A stretch of DNA of 64,000 nucleotides from Zobellia barbeyronii (GTDB lineage Bacteria > Bacteroidota > Bacteroidia > Flavobacteriales > Flavobacteriaceae): positions 248,001-312,000 of the forward strand of contig NZ_JACATN010000003.1 in the NCBI RefSeq assembly GCF_018603515.1. The letters are read 5' to 3'. Below are positions 47,951 to 64,000 of this stretch, one piece after another (the first letter of the stretch is position 1; each line of letters begins with the position of its first letter). Under the pieces are notes generated by a model. That model was not told where the DNA came from. It did no database searches and saw only the letters and a program-made list of their open reading frames with translations. A program made the position numbers and the translations under genes.

Positions 47951-47959
47951 CGCTATTTA

Positions 47960-48080
47960 TATTATTTTGGGCGTTCGGGCGGGCTTTTCACTTCTACTCC
48001 TCATGCTATTTATCTGTATCCAGATCAAAAGCATTGTGGGGTATCCGTTGCACTCCCTAACGCAATCGCTCGTTATCTTC
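47960..48080. repeat. REP-like intergenic element inside the efflux operon
   Basis: The gap between the RND and MFP genes differs from nearby spacers. It is locally GC-rich (GGGCGTTCGGGCGGGC on the plus strand, about 47969-47984), with short inverted pieces such as ATCTG/CAGAT. On the minus strand it contains GGAGTGCAACGGATACCCC and GAAAAGCCCGCCCGAACGCC, which I recall as a kind of repetitive intergenic element in flavobacterial genomes. It has no coding features. The family assignment is from memory. Confidence 0.45.
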
Positions 48081-48089
48081 TCTATCTTT

Positions 48090-49175: not shown

Positions 49176-49214
49176 TTTAGAATTAAGTACTAGGTAAAAG
49201 TGTATCGTAGTTTA

Positions 49215-50519
49215 TTACTTGGTCAAGAATTGTACATATGCCATGGCATAGTTATGTTGAAAAATGGTGCTGTAATATTCCAGTTGTTTCTGGGCATATT
49301 GGGTTTCGGCCATTAATACATCGGTCGTTTTTTCCAATCCCTGTTGAAAGCGGTTGGTGCGTATGCGCAAAGATTCTTTGGACTGCTCTAGGGCAAGGGC
49401 CGTAAGCTCCAAGTTGTTCTTGGCATCTTGGAGCGAACGTTTGGCCCTATTCAGCTCTACCTGACTTTCAGCTGTATATTGCTCTAATTCTATTTTTGAT
49501 TTTTCGTATTCCGCTTTACTTTTTTGAGCTTTTCCGTAACGCTTGCCTCCTTCTAGAATATTCCATTTTAGCTCGGCCCCGAACAAATATCCGTTGGAAG
49601 CTCCTTGAAAAATTTCGTCATCGTGAAGTTCATAGGTCCCAAATGCATTTAACCTTGGCAAGAAGCTCATTTTATCTGCCTTGTGCATTTGTCCGTAAGC
49701 ATTACTTGCAGATGACATGGCTAGTATATCCGCTCTGTTTTCAGAAAGCTGGTGTACGGCCGCATCACTAATTGTAACCGTTAGTGAATCTGTGGGCTGT
49801 AAGATTGCGTAGGTTTTATCATCCATTAAAACCGATAAGTAATTAGATGCATTTTGAATATTACTCTTTGCATACTGCAACTGGTTCTGTATCTCACCTA
49901 CACGGACTTCTACGGCAAGAACATCTGATTTCTGTAGATATCCCTGTTTAAAACTATTGTCTGCAATACGTTTGTTTTCTACTGCGGCTTCTTTTGCTTT
50001 TTCTAAAACTTCTACCGTTTTATACGCCAACTGTAGCTGCATATATGCCTTTTCTATCTCCAGCGACATATATTCCTGAGTACGTTCTGACTGTAGCTTG
50101 GTGGCATTATACTTGGACTTGGCCGCCTTGCGTTGGTAGATGCCATCAAAATTAACCAGTGGTTGTTGTACCTCTATTCGCGTAGCGAAATCTTCAATTT
50201 GACTAGGATTGTTCAGTAAATCCGGAGCAAAATCACCTGAAGTCAAAATAGATTGATTTAACTTAGAACCAAATGCCATTAACGGGTTGGTAGTTGCTAT
50301 TCCCGTATGTGAAACTCCTATACTAGGCAACAAGGTGGCATTGGTCTGCCTATAATCTCCCAAAGCTGCCAAAACATCTTGTTCCGCCATTTTTAAGGTG
50401 TTGTTGTTTTCGTTTACCTTGGCAATGACCTCAGCTTTTGTAATCAGTAGTGTTTCCTGTGCTTCTGCAAAAAAGGAACCTCCCAGAAAAACCAATATCA
50501 AGAAAATATACTTCATCAT
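49215..50519 (-). CDS. TolC-family outer-membrane efflux protein
   Basis: A 434-residue protein with signal peptide (about 1-20) and two repeated long helical hairpins, seen in KAEVIAKVNENNNTLKMAEQDVLAALGDYRQ and the second-repeat ELKWNILEGGKRYGKAQKSKAEYEKSKIELEQY. It forms the outer-membrane duct of the RND system. It is first in the five-gene operon TolC-MFP-RND-DUF3240-DUF2892. No regulator is adjacent; the upstream 90 bp lead into the terminator of the DUF6132 gene. Confidence 0.92.
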   Translation of the reverse strand: MMKYIFLILVFLGGSFFAEAQETLLITKAEVIAKVNENNNTLKMAEQDVLAALGDYRQTNATLLPSIGVSHTGIATTNPLMAFGSKLNQSILTSGDFAPDLLNNPSQIEDFATRIEVQQPLVNFDGIYQRKAAKSKYNATKLQSERTQEYMSLEIEKAYMQLQLAYKTVEVLEKAKEAAVENKRIADNSFKQGYLQKSDVLAVEVRVGEIQNQLQYAKSNIQNASNYLSVLMDDKTYAILQPTDSLTVTISDAAVHQLSENRADILAMSSASNAYGQMHKADKMSFLPRLNAFGTYELHDDEIFQGASNGYLFGAELKWNILEGGKRYGKAQKSKAEYEKSKIELEQYTAESQVELNRAKRSLQDAKNNLELTALALEQSKESLRIRTNRFQQGLEKTTDVLMAETQYAQKQLEYYSTIFQHNYAMAYVQFLTK

Positions 50520-50613
50520 TAATTTATTTTCTACAAAATTACGGTCGCGTTCCTAGCTCCACAGTAACCATTGTTACCATTCAAAAAAGTATTGCATCGC
50601 TCATTCTACGGAA

Positions 50614-50648
50614 TAAAAAAAGGCCCCTCGTTTACCGAAGTGCCTTTC
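50614..50648 (-). terminator. Terminator after the DUF6132 gene
   Basis: On the minus strand AAAGGC and GCCTTT form the stem base, extended by CTTCG pairing with CGAGG (one wobble), and seven T residues follow. It ends transcription of the small gene at 50684 before the efflux operon. Confidence 0.75.
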
Positions 50649-50683
50649 GTTGACTTACCTATATTATTTAATTTCTAACTAAT

Positions 50684-50878
50684 TTATTTCTGAGGAGATT
50701 TCACAAACATATTAAATAACAACCCTCCCATAAGAGCTCCGTACAACGTACTGTTCAGTGGTTTGGAGGTGATAGCGCAAGTACCAGAAACACACCCAAT
50801 TTCTGAATAATACACATACCCGGCAATTGCTCCTACAGCTATACCAAGCATTGTAAGCCATACTGTTTTTCTTATCAT
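50684..50878 (-). CDS. DUF6132-like small membrane protein
   Basis: A 64-residue protein from ATG at 50878; the longer in-frame extension upstream is Cys/Trp/Arg-rich and unlikely to be translated. It has two hydrophobic helices (VWLTMLGIAVGAIAGYVYY; STLYGALMGGLLFNMFV) and a CVSGTC motif between them. This is the DUF6132 pattern. Such proteins appear near rhodaneses, SQR and thioredoxin-like genes; here the upstream neighbour at 51073 is an SQR-like flavoprotein. A redox or sulfur role is inference. Confidence 0.75.
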   Translation of the reverse strand: MIRKTVWLTMLGIAVGAIAGYVYYSEIGCVSGTCAITSKPLNSTLYGALMGGLLFNMFVKSPQK

Positions 50879-51072
50879 TATAATGTTGTTTTTCGGGTAC
50901 CACCATGGCCTCCGGCCACAACAATCAATATCTTTAAACTCAACCAAATGAACTTGAAGAATTGAATGATAGGATTCCTCATAATGAATCGTTTTGATTT
51001 TGATATTCTTTTCATCTTTTTCTATTTCAAATTAAACCACTTACCAATAATGAATAATCGCTGTCCTACTTT

Positions 51073-52527
51073 TTACTCAGGAATGAGCCACCAAAACGGC
51101 TTCATTTTGGCCTTATACATAAAGGCATAATGCAATGCCAGTTTTAACCAGTGGCCAGCTAAACCAATTTCACCAAAGGTCTTGCCCAATTTTCTACCAT
51201 GAGTTTCTGGATATTTTATAAAATCGGGAACAATAGGGAATGTGGTAATGCTAATTCCGCTTCCTTGTGTCATGCCATAACCTGCAGAAGCAATACATGC
51301 TGCGCCCATATTACCCATAGATCCTTTGTGCTGTAATTCTTTTTTCCCTTTAATGACATCTATAATATTATCTGCAACCAACTTGGCCGTAATTCCCGAT
51401 GGCATTCCCGTACGTGGCGGTGCCGGCGAAATAGCTGTTCCGTTTTTACTTACCCTTGGTTTAGAAATGGCGTGTGGAGGTGCAAAGGCAATACCTGGCG
51501 CGAATATGTTTTTATATGACGGATTCTGATACGTTTCTGGCCAATCTTGCACGCTCCAATTTTCATAGGGTTTTGGCCTGTAATCTGCATCTACCAGCAT
51601 AAAGCCTTTAAAAAGCTTATCTGTTATCTCTTCATTATTTTTATCGTAAGCCTTGAACCCATGCCCTGAAAAAGCAGGAATGAGCATTGCAAAATCATAG
51701 GTTTCCGATTTTTGCTCGCCCTCCAAATTTTCATAATGGGCTATACCGTCTTCTATTTTATTTACTCCGGCACCTAGAATCCATTTTATGCCTCGGTCTT
51801 CAAAAACCATTTCAACCAATTCACTAGACTTCATAATGTTACTGCCGTAGCTAAGCAGAACGCCATCCATACCAAAATCTCCCAATTGATATTCGTTAGA
51901 AATCCAGGTAACTTCAGCCATATCTCGCACATTATGTCTGTGAAGTTCTTTCTCTACATTTAAAATATACTCAAAAGCAGCCCCTTGGCAGGTTGCCTTG
52001 GCATGACCTGTACCTATTAGAATTTTTACTTTTTCACCCTTCTTCATTCTTTCAATGAGGGCATCCAATCCTTGCCATGCATGTTCCGCATGGGTATAGG
52101 TACATACAGAATAGGTCTTATTGGTTGCGGGCATAAGCCCTTCCGTTTGGTCAAAAGCCAATTTTGGACCAGTAGCATTAATCAAATAGTCGTAGGTTAC
52201 TTTTTCCGTTCTGCCTTTTTCTTCCTCAAGAACATACTGCACGTTTACATAAGGTTTTGAGATTTCAGTATCCCCTTCTGGGTGAAAGGTTGTCACCTTG
52301 GCCCTTTTAAAGTCAATCCCTTTTTTCTTATATAATGGTGTTAGGGGAAAAAGAATATCTTCCGACTTCATCCTTCCCACACCTACCCATATATTAGAAG
52401 GTATCCATTGGTAATTTCCGTTTGGGGAAACAACGACTACTTCATGTTCTTTTGATAATTTTCTCCTTAGGTGAGTGGCGGCCACGTGACCTGCAATTCC
52501 AGCTCCTAGTATAACTATTTTAGACAT
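51073..52527 (-). CDS. FAD-dependent oxidoreductase, sulfide:quinone reductase-like
   Basis: About 484 residues from ATG at 52527, which places the FAD-binding IVILGAGIAGHVAATHL at the N-terminus. The second dinucleotide motif is ILIGTGHAKATCQGAAFEY, carrying a Cys that could be redox-active; further Cys lies in GAACIASAGYG. NYQWIPSNIWVGVG is typical of SQR/type II NADH dehydrogenase-like proteins, and the C-terminal LKLALHYAFMYKAKMKPFWW would dip into the membrane. It probably oxidises sulfide to polysulfide with quinone as acceptor. The exact SQR type is not determined. Confidence 0.8.
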   Translation of the reverse strand: MSKIVILGAGIAGHVAATHLRRKLSKEHEVVVVSPNGNYQWIPSNIWVGVGRMKSEDILFPLTPLYKKKGIDFKRAKVTTFHPEGDTEISKPYVNVQYVLEEEKGRTEKVTYDYLINATGPKLAFDQTEGLMPATNKTYSVCTYTHAEHAWQGLDALIERMKKGEKVKILIGTGHAKATCQGAAFEYILNVEKELHRHNVRDMAEVTWISNEYQLGDFGMDGVLLSYGSNIMKSSELVEMVFEDRGIKWILGAGVNKIEDGIAHYENLEGEQKSETYDFAMLIPAFSGHGFKAYDKNNEEITDKLFKGFMLVDADYRPKPYENWSVQDWPETYQNPSYKNIFAPGIAFAPPHAISKPRVSKNGTAISPAPPRTGMPSGITAKLVADNIIDVIKGKKELQHKGSMGNMGAACIASAGYGMTQGSGISITTFPIVPDFIKYPETHGRKLGKTFGEIGLAGHWLKLALHYAFMYKAKMKPFWWLIPE

Positions 52528-52728
52528 TTTGTTTGGATTTTTGGTATGAAGTTCATTCCTAAAAAACAACAACCAACCTGATTATTATTGACTAAGAACC
52601 AACAACACTAACACTGTAAATTTCAGTATTTAACAAAGCGCTCACAGCTACTTTTGTTACAGAAACAACCTGCTCAGAAGAAAAATAATTGTGTAAACGA
52701 ATATTGACGGGTTTGTTGCAAATAGTTT
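52528..52728. other. Intergenic sequence with no recognised feature
   Basis: Between the SQR-like gene and repeat copy A. It is AT-rich, with the likely promoter of the leftward SQR gene, but no motif was strong enough to name. TTTGTTGC (52712-52719) is the reverse complement of the GCAACAAA tags found after genes at 57.2 and 57.9 kb. Confidence 0.3.
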
Positions 52729-52885
52729 ATAAATAATACGGTATTCTGTAAGAAGTAGGTGACATGATTATTTATATTGCAGTTATAGTCTAAACATGGG
52801 TAGACTCAACAGAGTGGTTTTATACCCTAGTATTGAGAGGTATGTACTAGGGTACATATACAATTGTTACAAAACAATAAAAAAA
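52729..52885 (+). repeat. ~150-bp intergenic repeat, copy A
   Basis: First of three homologous copies. The cores TTCTGTAAGAA (52744-52754) and ATTTATATTGCAG (52770-52782) have starts 26 bp apart, exactly as in copies B and C. A 10-bp perfect inverted repeat (TACCCTAGTA at 52823-52832, TACTAGGGTA at 52845-52854) follows, and the copy ends with TTGTTACAAAACAATAAA. The following gene is 250 bp away, so this copy may be a remnant without its own short ORF. Confidence 0.85.
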
Positions 52886-53134
52886 GCACTAGTAAGATAA
52901 AAAAGTTCATTAGCTAGATTGCAAAATGTAGACTAACTAACAAAGCTCAATCAGATTATAAACGAGTTCAAATTTTTACAATACTAGAGTTAAAGAAAAT
53001 GTAGACGCGTTTTGTACCGCTTGGATTGATAAAACAAGATTAACAGTAACAGATACTATTACTTCCTAAAAAGAGTTTTACTTTTTATATAAGGTCTAAT
53101 TTTAGGATGATTATACAGTAAAAATAATTGATAA
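52886..53134. other. Leader of the orphan sensor kinase gene
   Basis: AT-rich sequence between repeat copy A and the kinase start. No clear -7/-33 pair, hairpin or gene fragment was seen. Confidence 0.3.
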
Positions 53135-56100
53135 ATGCAACGTTTCCCCACTAGGGTGCTCTTAACCTCGGTATTATATATCCTTATGATACTGGGCCTT
53201 AATGCGCAATCTAGTAATCAATTTTTAGAAAAAATTGGACTTGAAAATGGGCTTTCATCTAATTATCCTACATGCATTATTGAAGACTCCAAAGGATTCA
53301 TTTGGGCTGGCTCCAATAACGGATTGAACCGATACGATGGGTATCAATCTAAAGTATTTAAGTATGACCCAAACAATAGTAACACCATCTCAGAAAATTG
53401 GATTACTGCTCTATTAGAAGATTCTAATGGAAATATATGGATTGGAACAGAAGGTGGTGGACTAAACCTTTATAATACCACTACAGACGTTATAACGAGA
53501 TTTACCCATAGAAAAAATGATTCAACTTCTATTAGCAGTAACACGGTACATAGAATATACGAGGATAGTACATTAAGACTTTGGGTAGCTACAAATAGTG
53601 GTTTGAATTTACTAAATCGCTCCAAAGGCACCTTTAAACGCTGGATACAACCCAATGAATGCGAAAATTGTGAGTTCTCCGTAAAAGCTATAACTGAAGA
53701 TCAAAAGGGAAATCTTTGGATTGGAGACGAGTTTCAAGGGCTTTACTACTTTACTCCCTCCAGTGGTAAATTCACCAAACCTCATTTAAACAATACCAAT
53801 GAAAATGTACTTCCTTCAGAATTTATAAATGATCTATATTTCTCTAAAGGCAATTTATGGGTAGGTACTGACAATGGATTAGCCATATTAAACACACTAA
53901 CTACTCCATTTAAAAAAGTGGCATTAGATCCTGAACGTAAAAGTGCTCTTAATGGCATGTATATATGGAAAATTTACAATGACAATAATGGGAGTATTTG
54001 GTTATGTACAAATGGTAGCGGTTTAATAAATTATAATAGAAAGACACACGAGATAACTGTTTATAAGGCAGATGGCAACTCTGCTTACAAAATAGGTAGT
54101 AATTCCATAGAAGATGTACTTGTAGATACATCCAGAAACATTTGGATGGCAACCACAGGAAACGGATTGAATAAATTCAATTTGAAAAACCTGAACTTTC
54201 ATCATTGGGAAAAAGACAACGACAACAGCAATTCATTGGTTGATAACAGTGTCCGAGCAATGTTGCAGGATAAAGACGGTACGATATGGGTAGGAACTAA
54301 CAATGGGTTAAGCGGATTCAATCCAACATCTCATCTATTTAAAAATTATAAAAAGGATTTTAATTATAGAGCTGATGTCAATACTCCAAAAATCCGTTTT
54401 ATACTTCGTTCCAAAAGCAATGACTTATGGATAGGCTCACAAAGTGGTGGACTCTATAAATACAATCCAAAGCAAGATCGGTTCATCTTAGAATTAGATT
54501 TTATAAATAATCCAATAGCAACTAAAATAGGACACATTCAAACCTTATATGAGGTAGAAGATGGTGTACTGTTAATTGGAACCGTAGGAGCTGGCTTAGT
54601 TACCTACAATACTATTACAGGCGAAACCAAGCATATATACTCACAAGACAATCCCAATAACATCATATTTAGCTTAGATGCAAAATGCATGTTAACAGCT
54701 TCTGAATCTGAAATATGGATAGGTACTGACATAGGTTTGCTCTTGCTTAATACCAATACTTTAGAGTTTAAATTATGGGAATATAAAGAAGGTTGTGACA
54801 ACTGTATTGTTGGAAATAAAATTCGTTCCTTATACCGTGACAGGAACAATAGATTGTGGATTGGAACCAGAAGTGGCTTAGCCATATTTGATCCTAAATC
54901 CGAAAAATTTGAGCAATACGGAATAGATGATGGTCTACCAAGTGATATCATATTTGGTATTCTACCAGGTATTGACGGTAATATTTGGCTAACAACTCCC
55001 AATGGGTTGTCAAAAACAAACCCTCTAAATATAGAATTCAAAAATATTACAGTACCCGGAAACAATATTCTAGACATGGGAGCCCATGCACAGGGGTTAG
55101 ACGGAAATTTACTCATAGGAGGTACATCTGGGTTTACGGTTTTCAACCCTAACGACATAAAAAGTAACCCGCACATTCCTAATGTAGTTTTTACAGATGT
55201 TAAGGTTAACAATGAATCCATATCGTTCGATAAGAATATTTCCGAATTGGACTCCATAGATTTATCCTATGACCAAAACAATTTAACCTTTGAATTTTCT
55301 GCTTTAGAATTCACAAATTCCCAAATTAATAAATACAAATACAAATTAGAAGGGTTTAATGATAGTTGGGTTGAATATGGTAGTAAACACGATTTAAATT
55401 TTACAAATTTAGACCCAAAAACATACGTATTAAAAATTAAAGGCTCCAATGATGAAGGTGTGTGGAATGAGCAAGAAACGTCACTAACTATTTACATAAA
55501 ACCACCTTTTTGGAAAACACTGTGGTTTAGAATCCTTAGTATTTTACTAATTATTGGGTCTCTTTTTACTTTCTATTATTTACGGATCAATAGATTGAAA
55601 AAAACGGAAGCCATGCTTCAAAAAGAGGTCTCTAAACAAACAAAAGAACTGGTAGAGAACAACAAAAAGTTAGAGGAACTAGATAGAGAAAAGGATGGTA
55701 TCATTGGGATTATGGCTCATGACCTCAGAGGCCCTCTTAATAATATTCAAGGTCTTAGTCAGCTTTTAGAAAGTAATGAGAACTTAAATGAAGAACAAAA
55801 AACATACATTGGGTACATTAATAAATCTGTAAAAAGTGGTAATAGCCTAATCACAGATTTGCTCTTTATGAGTAATGTTAATCACCCAGAAAAAACAATT
55901 GAATTAAAAGACATTGAGCTTTCTGAATTTATAGAAGAATGGGGAAAAAGCTATATAACCAGGTTAGATAAAAAAGGTCAAGAACTAAGAACGTTTATTG
56001 ACAAAAAGCCTCTCATAATTCATACGGACCAAAAATTGGTGACCCGTATTTTTGATAATTTAATGACCAACGCAATTAAGTTTTCAAACAAAGGAAATAA

Positions 56101-56368
56101 AATTGATTTATCCGTAAACTCCAGTAACGACCTAATAATTATTTCCTTCAAAGATTACGGCCCTGGTATGTCTGAAGCTGATAAAAATAAAGCATTTAAA
56201 ATGTTTCAAAAACTCTCTGCACGACCAACGGATGGGGAAAGTTCCCATGGGTTGGGCTTAGCTATTGTTAAAACACTGGTTGAAAAGCTAGAAGGGTCTA
56301 TTACAATTAAAAGCGAACTGAGGAAAGGCACTGAGTTTATTCTCAGTTTACCTAAAGGGAAGATATAA
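53135..56368 (+). CDS. Orphan two-component-propeller sensor histidine kinase
   Basis: A 1077-residue membrane sensor with signal peptide (about 1-24), about a dozen propeller repeats of the form NIWIGTxxGGLN (about 30-690), a Y_Y_Y domain (LSYDQNNLTFEFSALEF), one membrane helix (LWFRILSILLIIGSLFTFYYL), a short coiled coil, HisKA (GIMAHDLRGPLNNIQGLSQLL) and HATPase (NLMTNAIKFSNKG; SHGLGLAIVKTLVEKLEG). Unlike the HTCS at 36881 it has no receiver or DNA-binding domain, and no response regulator is adjacent. It lies between repeat copies A and B. Ligand and partner are unknown. Confidence 0.9.
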   Translation: MQRFPTRVLLTSVLYILMILGLNAQSSNQFLEKIGLENGLSSNYPTCIIEDSKGFIWAGSNNGLNRYDGYQSKVFKYDPNNSNTISENWITALLEDSNGNIWIGTEGGGLNLYNTTTDVITRFTHRKNDSTSISSNTVHRIYEDSTLRLWVATNSGLNLLNRSKGTFKRWIQPNECENCEFSVKAITEDQKGNLWIGDEFQGLYYFTPSSGKFTKPHLNNTNENVLPSEFINDLYFSKGNLWVGTDNGLAILNTLTTPFKKVALDPERKSALNGMYIWKIYNDNNGSIWLCTNGSGLINYNRKTHEITVYKADGNSAYKIGSNSIEDVLVDTSRNIWMATTGNGLNKFNLKNLNFHHWEKDNDNSNSLVDNSVRAMLQDKDGTIWVGTNNGLSGFNPTSHLFKNYKKDFNYRADVNTPKIRFILRSKSNDLWIGSQSGGLYKYNPKQDRFILELDFINNPIATKIGHIQTLYEVEDGVLLIGTVGAGLVTYNTITGETKHIYSQDNPNNIIFSLDAKCMLTASESEIWIGTDIGLLLLNTNTLEFKLWEYKEGCDNCIVGNKIRSLYRDRNNRLWIGTRSGLAIFDPKSEKFEQYGIDDGLPSDIIFGILPGIDGNIWLTTPNGLSKTNPLNIEFKNITVPGNNILDMGAHAQGLDGNLLIGGTSGFTVFNPNDIKSNPHIPNVVFTDVKVNNESISFDKNISELDSIDLSYDQNNLTFEFSALEFTNSQINKYKYKLEGFNDSWVEYGSKHDLNFTNLDPKTYVLKIKGSNDEGVWNEQETSLTIYIKPPFWKTLWFRILSILLIIGSLFTFYYLRINRLKKTEAMLQKEVSKQTKELVENNKKLEELDREKDGIIGIMAHDLRGPLNNIQGLSQLLESNENLNEEQKTYIGYINKSVKSGNSLITDLLFMSNVNHPEKTIELKDIELSEFIEEWGKSYITRLDKKGQELRTFIDKKPLIIHTDQKLVTRIFDNLMTNAIKFSNKGNKIDLSVNSSNDLIIISFKDYGPGMSEADKNKAFKMFQKLSARPTDGESSHGLGLAIVKTLVEKLEGSITIKSELRKGTEFILSLPKGKI

Positions 56369-56529
56369 TCTAATCTTCTATTGCCAATTACAACTACTAC
56401 AATTTTATAACTCTTGGGCTGTGACAGCTCATTTGAGAGATTCTCTCTTTAAAGTTGACTACTAGTATATGCGTAAATAAAACACACGGTTTAACTCCGT
56501 AATCTTCTTATTCAAAAAACACCCCTTCA

Positions 56530-56685
56530 TTAAATAATACAGTATTCTGTAAGAATCAGACGACATGATTATTTATATTGCAGCTATAATACCGATTTAA
56601 ACAGGCTAAAAAGCGCCATGGTTACCCTCATATTTAGATAGATGTGTGCTTGTGGACATATACAAGCACTGTTAAACAAAATAAA
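56530..56685 (+). repeat. ~150-bp intergenic repeat, copy B
   Basis: TTCTGTAAGAA at 56545-56555 and ATTTATATTGCAG at 56571-56583, again 26 bp start to start. An 8-bp perfect hairpin (GTGCTTGT at 56646-56653, ACAAGCAC at 56662-56669) sits near its end, followed by GTTAAAC and the ATG of the next gene. The 160 bp before it (56369-56529) hold only small palindromes such as GAGAGATTCTCTC. Confidence 0.85.
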
Positions 56686-57201
56686 ATGTACAAATTCATA
56701 ATTTTACTTCTCATTCTATTTGTGCCATTAACTACGTTTTCACAAGATAAATATTTCAAATTACCACAGGCTAAAACCCAAAAACCCTTCTTAATTTTCA
56801 ATAAAAACATTATTGGAAATGATTTTTTAATGAATCGTTTTGGAACTTCAGAGAAAGAGGCGAGAGAAAAAATTAAAGAAATGTATGTTTTAATAGACAA
56901 ACAAAACAGAGAACTCAGCGACTATTATAACCTCACAGAACACGGACTCGTATTATTCGATTTAAAAGATAGTTTAATAAGTAAAACTCAATCAGAACTG
57001 AATAAATTTTTCGGACTGGACAAACAAAACGAAATCTATATTGACGGCTATTTATTAGAAAGTAAAAAATATAGCATCGCATTAATCGGAATTACCGAGA
57101 TTGAAATTGTGGAGCCTGATGGCATAAATGGACTTAAGAACAGAGTCCTGAATATATGGACTTTAGGAAAAAGCAAAAGGTATTTCAAAAACGAAAACTG
57201 A
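56686..57201 (+). CDS. Secreted protein of unknown function in repeat-bounded unit
   Basis: A 171-residue protein from ATG at 56686, chosen because the signal peptide (IILLLILFVPLTTFSQ) then begins at once; 14 upstream codons are unlikely. The mature part is charged, with the LPQAKTQKPFLIFNKN motif and an alpha-helical stretch (SEKEAREKIKEMYVLIDKQNREL). I recognise no domain. It directly follows repeat copy B and is followed, 13 bp after its stop, by the TTGCAACAAAACCT tag (57215-57228), so it looks like a gene-cassette insert. Confidence 0.65.
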   Translation: MYKFIILLLILFVPLTTFSQDKYFKLPQAKTQKPFLIFNKNIIGNDFLMNRFGTSEKEAREKIKEMYVLIDKQNRELSDYYNLTEHGLVLFDLKDSLISKTQSELNKFFGLDKQNEIYIDGYLLESKKYSIALIGITEIEIVEPDGINGLKNRVLNIWTLGKSKRYFKNEN

Positions 57202-57214
57202 CCATGAAAATAAT

Positions 57215-57228
57215 TTGCAACAAAACCT
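57215..57228 (+). repeat. 3' tag shared by cassette-like genes
   Basis: TTGCAACAAAACCT just after the stop of the secreted protein gene. Near-identical TTACAACAAAACCT occurs at 57890-57903 after the DMP19-like gene, and TGCACAACAAAACTCT at 61215-61230 just before repeat copy C. Confidence 0.5.
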
Positions 57229-57333
57229 AAATATAATACAAACCTTAGGGCAAAATCACAAGGTCTGTGCCTATTTACAAACCGCTAAATTTTATTGATT
57301 TAGCTTTAAAATAGAAAAATAAAATAATTATCA

Positions 57334-57885
57334 TTGAAAAAAATCTGGCTGTTTCTATCAAATATTTTCTTTACAAATCGCAATTCTAAAACCAAATTTA
57401 ATTTGGAAACAGTATTAGAAATGGATAGAGAGGACTTGATTGTTACGGAAATAGATACGTATTTAAATGAAATATCAAACTACGGACAAGAGATAGAAAA
57501 ATTGAATTCTTCTCAAAGAGTTTTGCTAATTATTGAAAACCTACAACGCGAAATTAATAATGGCGGATTTAAACAATTTTACTGGAATTCAAGCGGAGAT
57601 TATGCAATGGAAACGGTAGATACTCTAAAACAAATTGGAGCTACAATAACTGCTGGAGTAGTTAAAAAAGCTAACGACCAATTTCCTGACGGACTTGTTC
57701 CTGAAGACAGGGATAAAAGAGGTGAGGTTTTGAATTTAATTGGGGAAAAATCTTCTGAATACTGGAATGCGTTAGACCTTAAATTCTACGGACCTAATAA
57801 GGAAACCGGAATATGGGAAATTGACGACTTGCCAAATCTGCTTATTAAGTTTGTAAAAGCTAATAAAGCTGACTTTGAAAAATAA
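57334..57885 (+). CDS. DMP19-like (DUF4375) protein
   Basis: A 183-residue protein read from TTG at 57334; no ATG lies earlier in frame, and Met30 (57421) is the alternative. The core RVLLIIENLQREINNGGFKQFYWNSSGDYAMETVDTLKQIGA is the DUF4375/DMP19-like signature, with an acidic total composition. The Neisseria DMP19 member mimics DNA and relieves a repressor; other members are uncharacterised. It is alone, between the secreted protein and the TetR group, with the ACAACAAAACCT tag four bases after its stop. Function here is unknown. Confidence 0.75.
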   Translation: MKKIWLFLSNIFFTNRNSKTKFNLETVLEMDREDLIVTEIDTYLNEISNYGQEIEKLNSSQRVLLIIENLQREINNGGFKQFYWNSSGDYAMETVDTLKQIGATITAGVVKKANDQFPDGLVPEDRDKRGEVLNLIGEKSSEYWNALDLKFYGPNKETGIWEIDDLPNLLIKFVKANKADFEK

Positions 57886-57889
57886 TATG

Positions 57890-57903
57890 TTACAACAAAA
57901 CCT
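57890..57903 (+). repeat. 3' tag, second copy
   Basis: TTACAACAAAACCT begins four bases after the stop of the DMP19-like gene and matches the tag at 57215 in 13 of 14 bases. Confidence 0.5.
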
Positions 57904-58095
57904 CCTAAAAAAAGCCTCCCTCCTATTTTCTAAACCAAATTCCTGTTTTCTTCTACCTTAAAACTCCTTATCTCATCTTGCCTTTCACATAGCTTACCAG
58001 CTTTTTTATATTTACAGTCGGTGCTAAACGTAAAGGTTCGTGTGTAACGATTCGTTCCTAATCATAACCTTACCCCTGCCTGTAATTCAAAAAGT

Positions 58096-58125
58096 AGACA
58101 GACTTGTCTGCTTTTTGTATATTTG
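58096..58125 (+). promoter_or_regulatory. TetR autoregulatory operator and -7 box
   Basis: AGACAGAC-TT-GTCTGCTT (58096-58113) is an inverted repeat lying four bases before a TATATTTG -7 box (58118-58125), which in turn ends four bases before the GTG start of the TetR gene. The half-site AGACAGAC is identical to that of the palindrome at 61075 before the AhpD-like gene, which supports a common repressor. Confidence 0.65.
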
Positions 58126-58129
58126 TCCC

Positions 58130-58693
58130 GTGAAACACTCCGAAATAAAAAATAGAATCATTGAGACGGCCTCCTCCTTATTTTATAAGAATGGTTATAA
58201 TGCTACAGGGATAAATGAAATCATTTCCGAAGCTGGTATTGCTAAAGCAACACTCTACAGACATTTTAAATCTAAAGAAGATATCTGTATTGCCTATCTG
58301 CGGTTTAAAGACACCGGTTTCACTAAAGATATTGAAGAACTCACCTCTTCCAAACCAAAAGGAAAAGCGCAAATACTAGCTATTTTCGATTTTCTTGAAT
58401 TACTCTTTCAGACCAAAGACTTTAATGGTTGCTGGTCTATCAAAACAGTTTCAGAAATTTCGGGGAATAATGAAGTAATTAGAAATGAGATACAACAGCA
58501 AAAAAATGCGTTTATTGAATTTATCTCAAAACTGATAACGACTAATTTAGAGGATATTAAAGAAGAAGAAATTAACTCACTTTCTCGAAAAATATATTTA
58601 CTCTACGAAAGCGCAGTAGGTGAAAGTTATTTGCATCAAGCAGATTGGCCAATTGAGGAAGCAAAGAATTTGTGCTCCACAATATTAGAATAA
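58130..58693 (+). CDS. TetR/AcrR-family repressor
   Basis: A 187-residue regulator. GTG at 58130 (VKHSEIKNRIIETA) is preferred over the upstream ATG at 58040, because the longer form would cover the operator and promoter and adds an unrelated hydrophobic segment. The HTH is clear: NGYNATGINEIISEAGIAKATLYRHFKSKEDI. The C-terminal ligand domain contains two Cys (GCWSIK, NLCSTI). It is divergent in sense from no gene but has its own palindromic operator, and the same site occurs before the AhpD-like gene at 60738. It probably responds to a reactive or aromatic compound; the inducer is unknown. Confidence 0.92.
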   Translation: MKHSEIKNRIIETASSLFYKNGYNATGINEIISEAGIAKATLYRHFKSKEDICIAYLRFKDTGFTKDIEELTSSKPKGKAQILAIFDFLELLFQTKDFNGCWSIKTVSEISGNNEVIRNEIQQQKNAFIEFISKLITTNLEDIKEEEINSLSRKIYLLYESAVGESYLHQADWPIEEAKNLCSTILE

Positions 58694-58710
58694 AGCAATT
58701 TACGCCCATA

Positions 58711-58736
58711 TAGACAGACTAAAATTAGACTGTCTA
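58711..58736. terminator. Hairpin between converging tetR and patB-like genes
   Basis: TAGACAG...CTGTCTA arms with an inner CTAA/TTAG and one A:A mismatch form an 11-bp stem between the two converging stops. The half-site AGACAGAC resembles the TetR operator, so a third binding site is possible, but its position fits a transcript end better. Confidence 0.4.
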
Positions 58737-58784
58737 ATTAGTAATGCCGCTAATAATTACTTTGACGAACAACACTTAAAGCAA

Positions 58785-59993
58785 CTACTTTTCTAAAACA
58801 GCTTTTATAACTCTACGCAAACCTTCTTCTAATATTACTCTAGGGCAAGCAAGGTTTAATCTAATATAGCCATCTGCATTGGCAACAAACATATTTCCGC
58901 CTTCCAATAAAACCCCTGCATTTCGTGCGAAATACAATGTTAGGTTTTCATTATCAGCAAAATAATAACTAACATTTACCCAAGCCAAATAGGTTGTATC
59001 AGGAATAATGAACTTTGTATGAGGCAAATGTTCATCTAATTGTTCTTTTAAGTACTTAAAGTTATCATCTAAATAATCTGTCAATTCAATGAGCCAAGCA
59101 TGACCTTCTGAATAAGCAGCCTTAGCTGCTACAATACTCAATGGGTTTTCTACAGGCACATAATTCTCATTGTATTTAGTTCTCAATTCATCGTTGGGAA
59201 TAATAATATTAGCAAACAAATTACCAGCAAGGTTAAATGTTTTACTTGGCGCCATACAAGTAATAATCTTATCTGAATTAGGAAAAAGACTTGCCAAAGG
59301 TGTAAAGATTTTGTCTTTACGGAGTACGTCACAATGAATTTCATCAGATATAATAGTCAATCCGTTTTCTAAACAAACTTGGCCAAACTCTAATAATTCT
59401 TTTTGGGACCATAATCTCCCGGTAGGATTATGAGGGTTACAGAAAACCGCCAAAACACATTTCTCGTCTGACGCTTTCTTTTTAATATCATCCATATCCA
59501 TGCGAAACCTGCCCTTCTCTTCTATCAGATCAGAACAGACCAACTCTACCTCATTATAATCGGTTCCGTGCTTAAAAAACGCATAAGAAGGCGTAACAAT
59601 CAATACTTTTTCGTCTGCTTTACAGATATAACCGATCAAATCATATAAAGCGGGAATAACACCTTTAGCATGTACTAAATGTTCTATGTTAAACCTCCAT
59701 TTATAACGGTCTATACACCATTGCAGAAAACTCAACGCATAAGAAGGGTCAGCTACCATAGAATATCCCAATAACGGGTGTTCTAAGCGCTCTTTCATAG
59801 CATTGATAATTTCTGGTGCAATCGCAAATTCCATATCTGCAACCCACATTTTAATAAAATCTTCTTCCGGATAATTACCACTAAGATCTTCATCTGTATC
59901 AAAAAGATAACCTCTATACCCCTCTACGGACATAGCATTGGTTCCTTTTCTTTCTAATACTTGATTAAATTGGTATGTGTTAGATGACATCAT
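58785..59993 (-). CDS. patB: PLP-dependent aminotransferase/C-S lyase, MalY/PatB type
   Basis: A 402-residue fold-type I PLP enzyme. Motifs are NPHNPTGRLW (cofactor-binding Asn), IISDEIHCDV (Asp for pyridine N) and SKTFNLAGNLFANI with the Schiff-base lysine in PSKTF. MalY/PatB enzymes cleave cystathionine or cysteine conjugates and can act as aminotransferases. It is 41 bp after the RidA-family gene, and RidA proteins hydrolyse the reactive enamines/imines that PLP C-S lyases release, so the two form a sensible pair. Confidence 0.88.
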   Translation of the reverse strand: MMSSNTYQFNQVLERKGTNAMSVEGYRGYLFDTDEDLSGNYPEEDFIKMWVADMEFAIAPEIINAMKERLEHPLLGYSMVADPSYALSFLQWCIDRYKWRFNIEHLVHAKGVIPALYDLIGYICKADEKVLIVTPSYAFFKHGTDYNEVELVCSDLIEEKGRFRMDMDDIKKKASDEKCVLAVFCNPHNPTGRLWSQKELLEFGQVCLENGLTIISDEIHCDVLRKDKIFTPLASLFPNSDKIITCMAPSKTFNLAGNLFANIIIPNDELRTKYNENYVPVENPLSIVAAKAAYSEGHAWLIELTDYLDDNFKYLKEQLDEHLPHTKFIIPDTTYLAWVNVSYYFADNENLTLYFARNAGVLLEGGNMFVANADGYIRLNLACPRVILEEGLRRVIKAVLEK

Positions 59994-60034
59994 TTTAAAA
60001 ATTAGGAAGCGTTATAGTACTAGATTATTAAAGG

Positions 60035-60385
60035 CTATTTCTTTGCAGCAACTACAGACATTTCTACGAGCAATTCAGGTCTGGCCATACGAGCTTCAAC
60101 ACATGCACGTGCCGGCTGATGCCCTTCCTCTACCCAGGCATCCCAAACTTCATTCATGGCAGCAAAGTCTTTCATATCTCTTATATAAATGGTTACCGAG
60201 AGGATGTGTCTTTTGTCAGAACCGGCTTTATTAAGCAATTCTTCTACCTTTTCTAGGGTTGTTACCGTTTGTTCTTTGATGCTTTTAGTAGCATCTTTTG
60301 CCACTTGACCGCAAAGATAAATTGTACCATTATGCTCTACAATCCTACTCATACGCGGCGTTGTATCTATTCTTGTTATCGACAT
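60035..60385 (-). CDS. RidA/YjgF-family enamine/imine deaminase
   Basis: A 116-residue protein with the RidA fold pattern: [43 protein letters not shown], and the C-terminal [23 protein letters not shown] containing the conserved Arg. RidA proteins hydrolyse reactive 2-aminoacrylate-type imines to keto acids in the cytoplasm. The strong substrate-binding Arg near position 98 is present. It precedes the PatB-like gene in the same unit, supporting detoxification of that enzyme's by-products. Confidence 0.92.
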
Positions 60386-60737
60386 CAGTTTTTGTTATTG
60401 GTTAAAATGCAAAATGAATACATATAATTTTTTTACTGAGGAACTCATTGCAACTATGTACACTTTCCTAACACAAATGCATGCGGTTGGGAGACTTGTA
60501 CATTATAAATAAAAGACTTTAAACTTGATTATTAGAATATTGATGAAAAAGAATTACACCAAGTACAACAGGTACTATAATCATTGCCCTAAAACATATT
60601 AAGATGCAAAAGGACACTGATTATAGCCTTGTTGTTCTCTGCCAGAAGTTTCAATAATTTAATACTCATTTCAAAAATCCAAATTAGATAAAACAAGTAC
60701 CCATTAAAAGCCTGACAAAATTATTAAGTACAAAGAA
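60386..60737. other. 352-bp intergenic region, no gene seen
   Basis: AT-rich gap between the RidA gene and the AhpD-like gene. On the minus strand a 26-codon frame (MSIKLLKLLAENN start, about 60596-60676) is too short to support. No hairpin with a T-run and no repeat copy was found. It should contain the promoter of the RidA-PatB unit. Confidence 0.4.
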
Positions 60738-61040
60738 TTACTTTATAATATGTGTTCCATGAACAACTGCGGCACCTGCTCTTAATGCTGCTGCAATAAA
60801 CGTTGTTTCTGCTAATTCTTCTTCGGTTGCTCCTGCTTCCACTGCATGATTCTTGTGAATCTCAAGACAGTAAGGACATTGCGTAGTAAGTGCTACTGCT
60901 AAAGCTATTAATTCTTTATATTTTTTAGGAATTGCTCCTTCGCCCATAGCTGCTTTATCCAATGCTTGAAAAGCTTCCATTGCAGCAGGTGCCATTTTAC
61001 CTAAACTTCCTAGTTTACTCAATTGTTTCATGTCATACAT
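60738..61040 (-). CDS. AhpD/carboxymuconolactone decarboxylase-like protein
   Basis: A 100-residue protein with the AhpD-like core: YKELIALAVALTTQCPYCLEIHKNHAVEAGAT, where CPYC plus the following His is the redox-active site, and ETTFIAAALRAGAAVVHG. Members reduce peroxides or act as small disulfide reductases. Met4 is an alternative start (61031). The promoter is unusually clear, with a -33 TTG (61076-61074), 18-bp spacer and TAAATTTG (61055-61048). A 30-bp palindrome overlaps the -33 box, so a TetR repressor should switch it. Confidence 0.92.
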   Translation of the reverse strand: MYDMKQLSKLGSLGKMAPAAMEAFQALDKAAMGEGAIPKKYKELIALAVALTTQCPYCLEIHKNHAVEAGATEEELAETTFIAAALRAGAAVVHGTHIIK

Positions 61041-61047
61041 AGTACTT

Positions 61048-61104
61048 CAAATTTAATGTTGAATTCAAATGTACAAATAAAGACAGACCTGTCTGTCTTT
61101 ATTT
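61048..61104 (-). promoter_or_regulatory. Promoter of the AhpD-like gene with overlapping TetR operator
   Basis: The operator is a perfect palindrome: AAATAAAGACAGAC (61075-61088), two central bases, GTCTGTCTTTATTT (61091-61104). Its edge overlaps the -33 TTG (61076-61074 on the minus strand); the -7 TAAATTTG follows at 61055-61048, seven bases before the ATG. Binding would block RNA polymerase directly. The half-site is shared with the tetR operator at 58096. Confidence 0.8.
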
Positions 61105-61232
61105 TGTTTTTAACATTTATATACAAATTAGAATCTATGAGTCATTCTATTGCCGCAGAACTAAATGAAACGTTATATAGATTGACGAAAGCTAATTTGA
61201 GCTATCAGAACCTCTGCACAACAAAACTCTTC
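61105..61232. other. Intergenic region between AhpD promoter and repeat copy C
   Basis: The rest of the 362-bp gap from 61041. A plus-strand frame (MSHSIAAELNETLYRLTKAN, starting about 61137) reads protein-like for ~39 codons but runs into repeat copy C, and the TGCACAACAAAACTCT tag (61215-61230) lies inside it. It may be the decayed end of an earlier cassette gene; I do not call it a gene. Confidence 0.3.
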
Positions 61233-61402
61233 TATAAATATTACGCCTTTCTGTAAGAATAAAATGACGCGAATATTTATATTGCAGGTATAATCTAAAT
61301 GTGGGTAGGACTAACAGAGTTGTTGTATACTCAATTATGGAGAGATAAGAATACTAATGTAGATATGTAATTGTTAGGCACAATTAAAAAACAAAACCTT
61401 AA
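61233..61402 (+). repeat. ~150-bp intergenic repeat, copy C
   Basis: TTCTGTAAGAA at 61249-61259 and ATTTATATTGCAG at 61275-61287, 26 bp start to start. It ends with TGTTAGGCACA (61372-61382), which includes GTTAGGC, a fit to the GTTRRRY core of integron attC sites. It stops directly before the HEPN gene. A GACTAACAGAGTTGTTG stretch corresponds to GACTCAACAGAGTGGTT in copy A. Confidence 0.85.
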
Positions 61403-62797
61403 ATGAGCGAATTCCATTGCCTCGACATTGAATTTCCCAATGTTGATTTAAATCCATATTTTATTGATACTAAGACGGAAGTTAAACAAATTCATCACGC
61501 TCACTTGTACTCACACCAAGATGAAATTGAACTTAGAATCTTCTATGAAGACAGTACTTATTTTGGAGAAAAATTATCAACTTGGTTAAATAATATCGAT
61601 TCAAAAAAATTTGGCTCATTCATTAAAGTAAAATTAACTGAAAATCATACTAACGAGGGATTACAAAAAATTGATTTTTCTGAAGCAAAACTAATCGGTC
61701 TTTCAAATAGCACTAGTTATTATAAAGGTGACGAAAAATATATTATTATCACAATTGATACAATTAAGTCATATTGGGATTCTAACGAAGAAAATAAAAA
61801 TACAGGTGAATTTTATTTAGACGATAAAGGATTTAGGGTTGTTCAATCATTTTATGGAATTTTTGCTCCAAAAACATTTTTTAAAAATGACGGTAAATTT
61901 GAGATAAATAGAAAGAAAGACGCAACCAAGTTTTACAAACTTGGTAAATCATCATTTCGTCCAGAATTCAATTTATATTCAAAAGGCAATGTAAAAGATA
62001 GAACTGCTTCCATTATAAAAGAACCAAAAATCCAATTCAAATATCAAAATGAGATTACAGAAAAAGAAACTATTTTTTATGGTAATGTAGTATTGATGTT
62101 GGCTTCATTTTATCATCATCTAAAAATAGATTACACTCTTCGTAGAATACATTTGACAGAAAGTACAATAACCATAAAGAAAAGTGAGCAAAAAAACTAT
62201 TTTGATAGAAATGGAAGTCTTAGGGGATTTGGAATTAATTGGAATTTCAATAAATTTCTTCAATCAAGTTGGCAAACAGAATCTATAACCAACTTTGGTA
62301 TGCTTTCAAAAGCAATTACTTTGTTTAATCAATCGCATTTAGTTGACAATTCATCTGCATTTTTGATTCGTTATAATATTATTGAGATTTGTGACAAGCA
62401 AAAACAAGACACAGAAAAGTTCACCCTTACTTTGAGCAAAAGACAAATAAAACAAAAACAAGAAGAAGCTTTATCAAATCTATTAGAGACAATTAAAACT
62501 GATGAACAGCAAGTCTTTAAAAAGCGTTGGGCAAATGTTCTAACTTTATTACAGAACAAGCCTATGAAAAACCAATTGATTTCCTTTTTAGAAAACCAAA
62601 GTTTAGACCCAAATACATTTCCAATTACAATTAGAGAATTAAAAGAACTAAGAAACAATATAACACATGGTAGTATCGATAAAGTAGATGTAGAATTACT
62701 TAGAAAGGCTAATATCTTACTTTATAGAATTAGTGGTATACTAATCTTAAACTTAATGGGAATAAAAGATTGGAAATTAAACACGGAAATAAAGTAA
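61403..62797 (+). CDS. HEPN-domain protein, ApeA-like, candidate defence RNase
   Basis: A 464-residue soluble protein. The last ~200 residues are helical and end in a HEPN domain with the RNase signature ELRNNITHG (Arg417-x4-His422). The layout, a large beta-rich N-terminal part plus Apea-like HEPN, resembles ApeA, a known single-gene anti-phage HEPN system. The N-terminal half is not recognisably the ApeA domain. HEPN RNases of this kind cleave tRNA or other RNA on phage infection. The gene is isolated, AT-rich, and bounded by repeat copy C and the inverted TGTTAGGCACA/TGTGCCTAACA pair, which fits an acquired cassette. Confidence 0.7.
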   Translation: MSEFHCLDIEFPNVDLNPYFIDTKTEVKQIHHAHLYSHQDEIELRIFYEDSTYFGEKLSTWLNNIDSKKFGSFIKVKLTENHTNEGLQKIDFSEAKLIGLSNSTSYYKGDEKYIIITIDTIKSYWDSNEENKNTGEFYLDDKGFRVVQSFYGIFAPKTFFKNDGKFEINRKKDATKFYKLGKSSFRPEFNLYSKGNVKDRTASIIKEPKIQFKYQNEITEKETIFYGNVVLMLASFYHHLKIDYTLRRIHLTESTITIKKSEQKNYFDRNGSLRGFGINWNFNKFLQSSWQTESITNFGMLSKAITLFNQSHLVDNSSAFLIRYNIIEICDKQKQDTEKFTLTLSKRQIKQKQEEALSNLLETIKTDEQQVFKKRWANVLTLLQNKPMKNQLISFLENQSLDPNTFPITIRELKELRNNITHGSIDKVDVELLRKANILLYRISGILILNLMGIKDWKLNTEIK

Positions 62798-62798
62798 C

Positions 62799-62809
62799 TG
62801 TGCCTAACA
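62799..62809 (+). repeat. Inverted boundary repeat after the HEPN gene
   Basis: TGTGCCTAACA two bases after the stop is the exact reverse complement of TGTTAGGCACA at 61372-61382. GCCTAAC fits the RYYYAAC core of an attC R'' site. I could not find a matching R' core within the next ~120 bp. Confidence 0.6.
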
Positions 62810-62909
62810 CGGTATAAAAAACATAAGTCATCTGTGCTAAACCGAAACAAAAGTGGTTATCACCTGCTCTACGCCTCAAACATTAGATTCATAAACACCA
62901 CCCCCAACT

Positions 62910-63542
62910 CTACAAATCAACCAATTTTATATGGTATCGATTTAGTTTAACCTTGCCCATATTTTCCAGTTTTTTAAGCAACCTAGATATTACTACGCGA
63001 GAAGTATGTAGCTCGTAAGCTATTTCTTGGTGGGTACTATTTATAGTGGTGCTGCCTGTAACCCGAGATTTGTTTTTCAGGTATTTTAAAAGACGTTCAT
63101 CCATTTTTAAAAATGCGATGCTGTCTAAAGTTTCCAGCAATTCATTCAGCCTATTATGGTAACTTTCTAGAATAAAATTACGCCAGCTTGGGTATTTGGC
63201 CATCCATTCTTCCATTTTACTAATGGGCACCATAATTAACTTTGCTTCGGTTTCTGCCACCGCGCGTATTTCACTCTTTCTATGACCTACACAACAGTTT
63301 AGTGTCATGGCACAAGTATCGCCATGCTCAAGGAAATAAAGCAATAGCTCATCACCTTTGGCATCTTCCCTCAACACCTTTATTACTCCTGAGACCAGCA
63401 ACGGCATAGTTTTAATGAATTCCCCTATTTCTATAAGTTTAAATCCTTCAGGAATTTCTTTATACGTAGCTACGTTATCAATTTCTTGAAGAAGTTCTTC
63501 CTCAAAAATATGCCCGTAATTCTCTTGTAATGGCTGGTTCAT
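62910..63542 (-). CDS. Crp/Fnr-family transcriptional regulator
   Basis: A 210-residue regulator: N-terminal cyclic-nucleotide-binding-type domain (GVIKVLREDAKGDELLLYFLEHGDTCAMTL) and C-terminal winged HTH (STHQEIAYELHTSRVVISRLLKKLENMG). There are no Fnr-type cysteine clusters, but two Cys are adjacent to the sensor loop (CAMTLNCC). It is 13 bp downstream of the DUF2892 gene. Homologues often control sulfur or nitrosative/redox genes in Bacteroidetes, consistent with this neighbourhood; the signal is unknown. Confidence 0.92.
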   Translation of the reverse strand: MNQPLQENYGHIFEEELLQEIDNVATYKEIPEGFKLIEIGEFIKTMPLLVSGVIKVLREDAKGDELLLYFLEHGDTCAMTLNCCVGHRKSEIRAVAETEAKLIMVPISKMEEWMAKYPSWRNFILESYHNRLNELLETLDSIAFLKMDERLLKYLKNKSRVTGSTTINSTHQEIAYELHTSRVVISRLLKKLENMGKVKLNRYHIKLVDL

Positions 63543-63555
63543 CTTAAAAATTTAA

Positions 63556-63762
63556 TCACTCTTTAATAGAACAGGTCTTAAACCCGAAAAGCGTGTATAA
63601 CGGACAGAAGTTTATAAAACTGGTTATAATAAAAATTGCAGCTACGCCCAACAGCACGTAAGCTAAAGTGCCCCCAATACTATTTTGCCAATAGAGTACA
63701 ATAACAATAGCGGCAAAAATAAATCTAATGATGCGGTCTGTACTTCCCATATTCTTTTTCAT
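63556..63762 (-). CDS. DUF2892 (YgaP-type) small membrane protein
   Basis: A 68-residue protein from ATG at 63762, chosen because the DUF2892 motif NMGSTDRIIRFIFAAIVIVLYW then begins correctly; the extra upstream 20 codons are unlikely. The second helix and tail are AYVLLGVAAIFIITSFINFCPLYTLFGFKTC, the classical CPLY and C-terminal Cys pattern. Such proteins accompany rhodaneses and Crp/Fnr regulators. It lies 13 bp before the Crp/Fnr gene. Confidence 0.9.
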   Translation of the reverse strand: MKKNMGSTDRIIRFIFAAIVIVLYWQNSIGGTLAYVLLGVAAIFIITSFINFCPLYTLFGFKTCSIKE

Positions 63763-63869
63763 GGTTCTAAAATTTAGTTGGTTGAAGGTTTCTCGCATCA
63801 GAAATATTCTGGCTTCATCCAATTCCTGTCATACCCTTTATTCTGTATATTCAGTAATTGGAGGGCTCA

Positions 63870-64000
63870 CTACTTAGACATTTTACCACTCACACAACTA
63901 GCAAAAGAAATTGCCTTTGCGGCCATAGAATTAGCGCTGTCTATGGATGGGTAACCCAATGCTTTTAACTTGTCTTTTACAAGCAAGGCTACGTTTACAT
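63870..64000 (-). CDS. C-terminal end of an unknown gene (cut by window edge)
   Basis: A minus-strand reading frame enters from the right edge and ends at TAG (63872-63870). The visible 42 residues include LVKDKLKALGYPSIDSANSMA and end AISFASCVSGKMSK. It reads like real protein, helical with one Cys near the end, but no family can be named. It is upstream of the DUF2892-Crp/Fnr pair, 108 bp away. Confidence 0.55.
   Translation of the reverse strand, partial: VNVALLVKDKLKALGYPSIDSANSMAAKAISFASCVSGKMSK

Follow-up and report, generated by a model that had tools for sequence, protein, structure and literature searches.

Solitary attI-like platforms of a probable integron-like gene-capture system in Zobellia barbeyronii and other Flavobacteriaceae

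A 64,000-nucleotide (nt) stretch of the Zobellia barbeyronii genome (contig NZ_JACATN010000003.1, positions 248,001 to 312,000; hereafter the window) contains three copies of a repeat of about 145 nt, all on the + strand, with starts at positions 52728, 56529 and 61233 (copies A, B and C). With a probability of roughly 0.8, these repeats are solitary docking platforms of an integron-like gene-capture system, each composed of a block that is likely a promoter and, after it, an attI-like site with the presumed crossover point at its GTT. In the mechanism that we infer, the attC-like site of a circular cassette would fold as a single bottom strand, a tyrosine recombinase would join this cassette to the GTT of the platform, and the inserted gene would then be transcribed from the platform promoter; the recombinase would act on the platforms in trans, or would have done so in an ancestor. 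The system is integron-like in most of the anatomy tested, but it fails the defining tests of classical integrons. It looks common in the family Flavobacteriaceae, and its recombinase looks different from the classical integron integrase, IntI.

The three copies belong to a 115-nt family in which the two others are 63% and 77% identical to the first, and each combines a 5' block, the best conserved part of the repeat, with a 3' half ending in GTT. An earlier reading of the window from its letters alone (the sequence-only reading) had described same-orientation copies with a rigid core. This description holds, since the core TCTGTAAGAA-N14-TATTTATATTGCAG occurs without mismatch at 52745, 56546 and 61250 and in none of 100 dinucleotide shuffles of the window. 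A whole-genome search, which the same reading had advised, returned exactly three matches in 4,977,540 bases at up to three mismatches, and none for a reversed control. The weaker downstream match that it had noticed is also real: the homology extends over about 90 nt, ends near GTT (52866, 56671 and 61373), and this 3' part would moreover be the attI-like site itself. Copy A (52728..52868) comprises a 5' block at 52728-52783, likely a promoter, and an attI-like 3' half extending to the GTT at 52866-52868, with TATGTAC-TAGG-GTACATA read by eye at 52841-52858. Copy B (56529..56673) ends at the GTT at 56671-56673 and its attI half is decayed, and copy C (61233..61375) has a 5' block at 61233-61288 and an attI-like half reaching the GTT at 61373-61375. 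Two of the three copies were said to stop just before an open reading frame (ORF); in copies B and C, the distance from the start of the GTT to the downstream ATG is 15 and 30 nt, respectively, and copy A lies 269 nt upstream of a sensor kinase gene. As also stated, the ORFs of 45000-64000 were found to include neither a transposase nor an integrase; the recombinase gene of the same genome is located on another contig.

Behind copy C, a cassette spans 61373-62808. Its start box GTTAGGCACAATTA (61373..61386, +) is complementary, except for one A.C, to an end box TAACTGTGCCTAAC (62795..62808, +) located at the stop codon of a cassette ORF of 464 amino acids (aa; 61403..62797, +). The left (L'') half of an attC-like site follows (62809..62828, +); no L' partner was found within 320 nt, and because this right half was not found the cassette is probably locked. 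Behind copy B, a cassette-like 171-aa ORF (56686..57201, +), for which no complementary box pair was found, is followed from 57219 by an attC-like remnant, AACAAAACCTAAATATAATAC, lacking an L' partner. Next to it, a DMP19 ORF (57334..57885, +) is probably a second, decayed cassette, followed from 57894 by AACAAAACCTCC, for which no L' partner was found. No matching end box was found within 6 kb of copy A, and in the window neither copy B nor copy C was seen to be followed by a complete attC-like site. The window copies are orphan or ageing platforms, and the system is partly decayed there.

A 3' end of the same kind appears beside a recombinase gene. In G006, a genome of the same genus (as is G002, the window's own genome being G000), ATTGGGATATATGTAATTGTACACATATCCGTAC comes after the stop codon of the recombinase gene and precedes GTTGTGCTACATATG, which resembles the 3' end of the repeat; the adjacent cassette carries the end box ATACGTAGCACAAC, and its boxes match. 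Relatives of this recombinase (E <= 1e-40) occur in 255 of 397 family genomes, and the 30 loci closest to the G006 query (L172-L201) were fetched. An attI-like GTT follows the gene in the same direction in 28 of the 30 loci, 41-83 nt past the stop codon in the 23 measured, L181 (cut off) and L190 (GTT not visible) having no usable site. Inverted arms of at least 8 precede the GTT in 23 of these 28 loci; shuffles of one sequence average 5.3, with a maximum of 9. After five loci with flanks below 400 nt were dropped (L177, L180, L185, L199 and L201), an end box scoring at least 9 was found in 22 of 23 loci, L195 being the sole failure, against 37 of 621 swapped boxes, and one scoring at least 12 in 12 of 23 against 0 of 621, in a test not fully blind since the GTT was set by eye after the automatic choice had picked palindrome-internal GTTs in eight loci. 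With the automatic choice, own boxes scored at least 9 in 15/24 loci and controls in 35/645. Position 11 was A.C in 18 of the 22 matching loci, the other four being of a bulged type. In G005, by eye, the roughly 100 nt after the recombinase gene recur almost unchanged some 235 kb away, in front of an array of two cassettes.

Cassettes follow a common box rule, with GTT-N7-A-N3 at the start and N3'-C-N7'-AAC at the end, the two boxes of a cassette being complementary apart from one fixed A.C mispair, and each cassette having boxes of its own. As a loose box-pair scan proved too loose (84 pairs were expected from resampled sequence and 126 obtained), a strict letter-class control was made across L001-L201 on both strands. 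With the other positions agreeing, position 11 was A.C in 56 cases and its mirror G.T in 57, and each of the 14 other letter classes, perfect pairs included, was found 0 to 6 times. Distinct A.C box pairs number 52, one of which fits GTTRRRY, as does the box pair of copy C. The array behind the G006 recombinase contains 27 recognised cassettes, counted in a scan that allowed one N7 mismatch and had no control of its own (29 rows less 2 spanning repeated boxes). Gaps between them measure 116-121 or 179-186 nt in 23 of 26 cases and 949-1586 nt in three, which perhaps hold unrecognised cassettes. The window genome itself carries 10 more cassettes, on contigs C3, C5, C31 and C37. Among the 52 cassettes with distinct A.C box pairs, one related gene pair was detected (66% over 202 aa, different genera), the L188 gene standing first behind an attI-like site and the L169 gene behind an attC-like site.

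The sites between the G006 cassettes are predicted to fold like integron attC sites. In 23 of them the arms were paired with no bonus for A.C. This pair lies 10 and 15 nt from AAC in every one and accounts for 50 of the 59 non-standard arm pairs; the bottom strand has the lower folding energy in 22 of the 23. A set of 27 sites from 23 other loci likewise has A.C at arm positions 7 (27 sites) and 12 (26 sites), with compensatory changes elsewhere, a constancy inflated by their selection for likeness to both arms with a filter that demanded A at position 7. The bottom strand was again the lower in 21 of the 21 folded, six of the 27 lacking a start box and being left unfolded. A top-strand A.C is a G.T on the bottom strand. 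In known attC sites, the bottom strand is selected by means of extrahelical bases (PMC2727003); in the present sites, G.T wobble pairs may select the strand instead. One left-arm attC pattern was found in 222 of 397 family genomes and its reversed control in none. Pattern and recombinase occur together in 167 genomes, the pattern alone in 55, the recombinase alone in 88 and neither in 87, an odds ratio of 3.0 that is not corrected for kinship. The attC-like structure that the sequence-only reading had suggested looking for was seen where cassettes end, in other loci and genomes; for the repeat copies no convincing common fold emerged, RNAalifold giving a weak consensus of -3.3 kcal/mol for eight of them.

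Platform copies are also found in related genomes. At up to three mismatches, the core was detected in 7 of 60 genomes including the window's own, convincingly in G002 (three copies) and G006 (two). Single three-mismatch matches (G018, G021, G026 and G028) are no commoner than the reversed control pattern, found in 4 of the 60, and therefore carry no weight. A sequence model of eight copies, those of G000 and G006 among them, matched 18 of the 397 family genomes at E <= 0.01, and at E <= 1e-4 G000 (3), G006 (3), G018 (4) and G008 (2); G005 has one further copy. In G000, G002 and G006, the copies occupy one variable region, flanked by an FAD oxidoreductase gene and a crp-type gene, and the ORFs behind them differ: 171 aa plus DMP19 (B) and 464 aa (C) in G000, 231 aa (B) and 536 aa (C) in G002, and 594 aa with MORN and DMP19 (B) in G006. 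Copy C and its G002 counterpart share 88.6% identity over 114 nt, and despite this likeness the 464-aa ORF stands behind one and the 536-aa ORF behind the other. An aminotransferase of the interval has no close relative that could be found in eight congeners, which shows only that the interval varies. At G006 C9, a 5' block lacking the attI half stands, as a promoter would, before a gene that by eye encodes a lipoprotein, and the 5' block is probably a promoter. Two interpretations had been offered for the repeat, a gene-cassette boundary and a non-autonomous mobile element. The first is borne out by copies that end at the cassette-start GTT, by the matching boxes at copy C and by the different ORFs behind copies in congeners. 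The second is not, as it is the cassette that behaves as a mobile unit, the repeat behaving as its fixed docking site.

A recombinase of about 355-380 aa, further to XerC/D, was found in five of ten genomes (G000, G001, G005, G006 and G018); G007 and G008 have shorter frames, G004 a broken piece, and G002 and G003 none. The integron-integrase model TIGR02249 has matches in all ten genomes and none over its cut-off of 265 bits (G006 208, G005 207, G000 191); 14 control genomes also match, and XerC/D explain part of these matches. With NF040815, a Xer-type family named 'site-specific tyrosine recombinase/integron integrase' (cut-off 220), the G006 protein passes with 237 bits, and those of G005 (214) and G000 (194) fail. 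IntI is recognised by an insertion, an additional domain or patch between catalytic boxes (PMC2426708). This insertion is absent from the recombinase rows of the alignment examined, and the alignment to 2a3v omits chain 180-243. In the tree, IntI forms its own clade (100/100), with the present recombinases outside it and apart from the XerC/D of the same genomes. The branch that sets the recombinase group off on one side has only 63/33 support; long branches meet there, in an unrooted tree with no outgroup, and the tree does not decide the sister relation of this group to IntI. Taken together, the lack of the insertion, scores below the cut-off, placement outside the IntI clade and boxes other than GTTRRRY are why the system is not classed as an IntI integron. 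The roughly 100-aa N-terminal domain of the recombinase has no PDB match up to E 0.1 and no convincing one in Pfam; a possible likeness to HARP domains found no support in the analysis.

Several observations weigh against the docking-platform interpretation. Three platforms exist in G002, a genome in which no recombinase of this kind was found, only XerC/D-like proteins and one 198-aa frame, and the 355-aa recombinase of G000 (contig C33) belongs to a different subfamily in the tree. The longest inverted arms before the GTT are 10 in copy A, 8 in B and 5 in C, and 300 shuffles of A average 5.3 with a maximum of 9. The 5' block departs from the -33/-7 spacing of Bacteroidetes promoters. The end-box test on platforms considered 18 copies, 14 of which had a candidate site (G002 A, G006 A, one copy in G018 and G006 C9 were left out). 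A matching box within 6 kb was found for 3 of the 14 (window C, G006 B and one G018 copy) and for none of the other 11, A and B of the window included; G002 C is among the unmatched, yet fits the bulged box type recognised afterwards.

The repeats might instead have arisen by duplication of a promoter or RNA leader belonging to a single regulon, for instance that of the sensor kinase, the genes behind them having been brought by homologous recombination. The 5' block is after all their best conserved part, and, of nine genus genomes, the three that have the kinase (G000, G002 and G006) have copy A in front of it. However, such a leader would account neither for the GTT end, nor for the resemblance to the recombinase-adjacent site, nor for the start and end boxes; no Rfam match was obtained up to E 1 in 52000-64000, the consensus fold is weak, and G005 and G008 have copies without the kinase, all of which makes this account improbable. 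A slightly smaller chance is given to ordinary remnants of a classical IntI integron, that is, a cluster of attC sites lacking integron integrases (CALIN) in which the attC sites merely look unusual. True IntI is common elsewhere in the phylum, where TIGR02249 exceeds its cut-off in 84 of 296 genomes, and the unrooted tree leaves the sister relation undecided; but none of the ten genomes passes the cut-off, no family genome is among the 86 phylum genomes with a match, though at least 20 were sampled, and the site-adjacent recombinases lack the IntI insertion and stand apart from the IntI clade, with one of 52 boxes fitting GTTRRRY. Least credible, and very unlikely indeed, is a non-autonomous transposon bounded by terminal repeats and resembling a miniature inverted-repeat transposable element: it would fit copies that adjoin accessory ORFs varying between congeners, but the inverted boxes vary between units and match within each unit, unlike fixed terminal repeats.

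Interpreted as docking platforms and cassettes, the system shares with IntI integrons (class 1, the Vibrio superintegron and, in Bacteroidetes, Salinibacter ruber M1) a recombinase gene, an adjacent attI-like site and a one-orientation array of mostly single-ORF cassettes, together with R and L boxes, a spacer, a GTT where cassettes begin and a bottom strand that folds better. In contrast to them, the IntI additional domain is missing from the recombinase, whose N-terminal domain of about 100 aa is unassigned; the boxes read GTT-N7-A-N3 and can be complementary at up to 13 of 14 nt; top-strand A.C is fixed at three places where known attC has extrahelical bases; the attI-like site lies behind the gene and is codirectional with it (28/30 loci); and extra solitary platforms exist. 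Cassettes far from any recombinase gene recall CALIN elements, defined by at least two neighbouring attC sites and no integrase, from which the present system differs by an attI-like site with a promoter-like block and, in the window, by attC-like sites that are half-sites or decayed. The catalytic core is like that of Xer-type recombinases (NF040815; PDB 4a8e), but these recombinases sit at cassette arrays. Treponema-type integrons have a reversed integrase also read towards the cassettes, and differ in the IntI insertion, which is absent here. In the IntegronFinder 2.0 report, one complete integron is given for Bacteroidetes proper (Salinibacter), where earlier only integrase-only elements were known (PMC9024848). 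No description of such a flavobacterial system was found in the literature searched, a scope that excluded preprints and most subscription journals, and the system may already be known elsewhere. Tentatively, and at a little under even odds, it could represent a second kind of integron with an origin separate from the IntI lineage, in which a Xer-like recombinase that has its own N-terminal domain, and that well over half of the family possesses, would use folded attC sites whose G.T wobbles choose the strand, and scattered solitary promoter-plus-attI platforms would serve as extra docking and expression sites.

The genes behind the window copies are accessory. The 1077-aa sensor kinase (Reg_prop/Y_Y_Y/HisKA/HATPase; 53135..56368, +) has an ortholog (79-81%) only in G002 and G006 among eight other genus genomes, and a platform copy lies upstream of the kinase in all three. 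The 464-aa ORF has no match in Pfam, NCBIfam or PADLOC, and cassette ORFs as a whole gave none in PADLOC. It carries RNNITH near its C terminus, a HEPN-like RX4H motif, and may be a defence gene of a kind not yet described. The search for relatives gave five, at 58-75%, and in a sixth genome a 46-aa piece, other orders included. In the flanks of the five relatives checked, the boxes are not kept, except partly in L220, and movement of this ORF as a cassette elsewhere is therefore not demonstrated. The relative at L221 1551-7348 (Bacteroidales) lies between 800-aa and 590-aa ORFs, by eye DUF2075- and SIR2-like.

Other observations concern the surroundings of platforms and recombinases. Further cassette platforms with other sequences were seen at L118 and L139 (G018) and at L258 and L259 (G000 C3 and C5), where GTT is preceded by CAACTCGCCATAGCCGTCTGGCC or TTCCGGAAGATATACCCGGACC; the first of these also occurs close upstream of a divergently oriented recombinase. 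At the contig end beside the G000 recombinase (L137 6061-6164), GTTGAGGGAAATGA and TCATTTCCCTCAAC enclose, by eye, about 100 nt without an ORF, which looks like an empty cassette or a hairpin. Upstream of the G005 and G006 recombinase genes, at a distance of about 1 kb, there is a tRNA gene (Pro, Met; L138 4386-4460; L140 4703-4776); among the 30 loci L172-L201, six contain a tRNA and one a tmRNA. In both G002 and G006, a block of about 3.2 kb with four genes, by eye SDR, START-like, membrane protein and AraC, is flanked by duplicates of the 3' part of the crp/fnr-type gene (L013 2-436 and 3591-4073; L014 246-923 and 4078-4560). The gene is single in the window (62910-63542), and the block looks like an insertion at its 3' end.

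If this interpretation is true, over half of the sampled Flavobacteriaceae genomes (recombinase in 255 and attC arm pattern in 222 of 397) would carry a gene-capture system missed by searches for IntI. Their arrays would hold unknown accessory genes, and the choice of the recombining strand could be studied in a second, differently built system.

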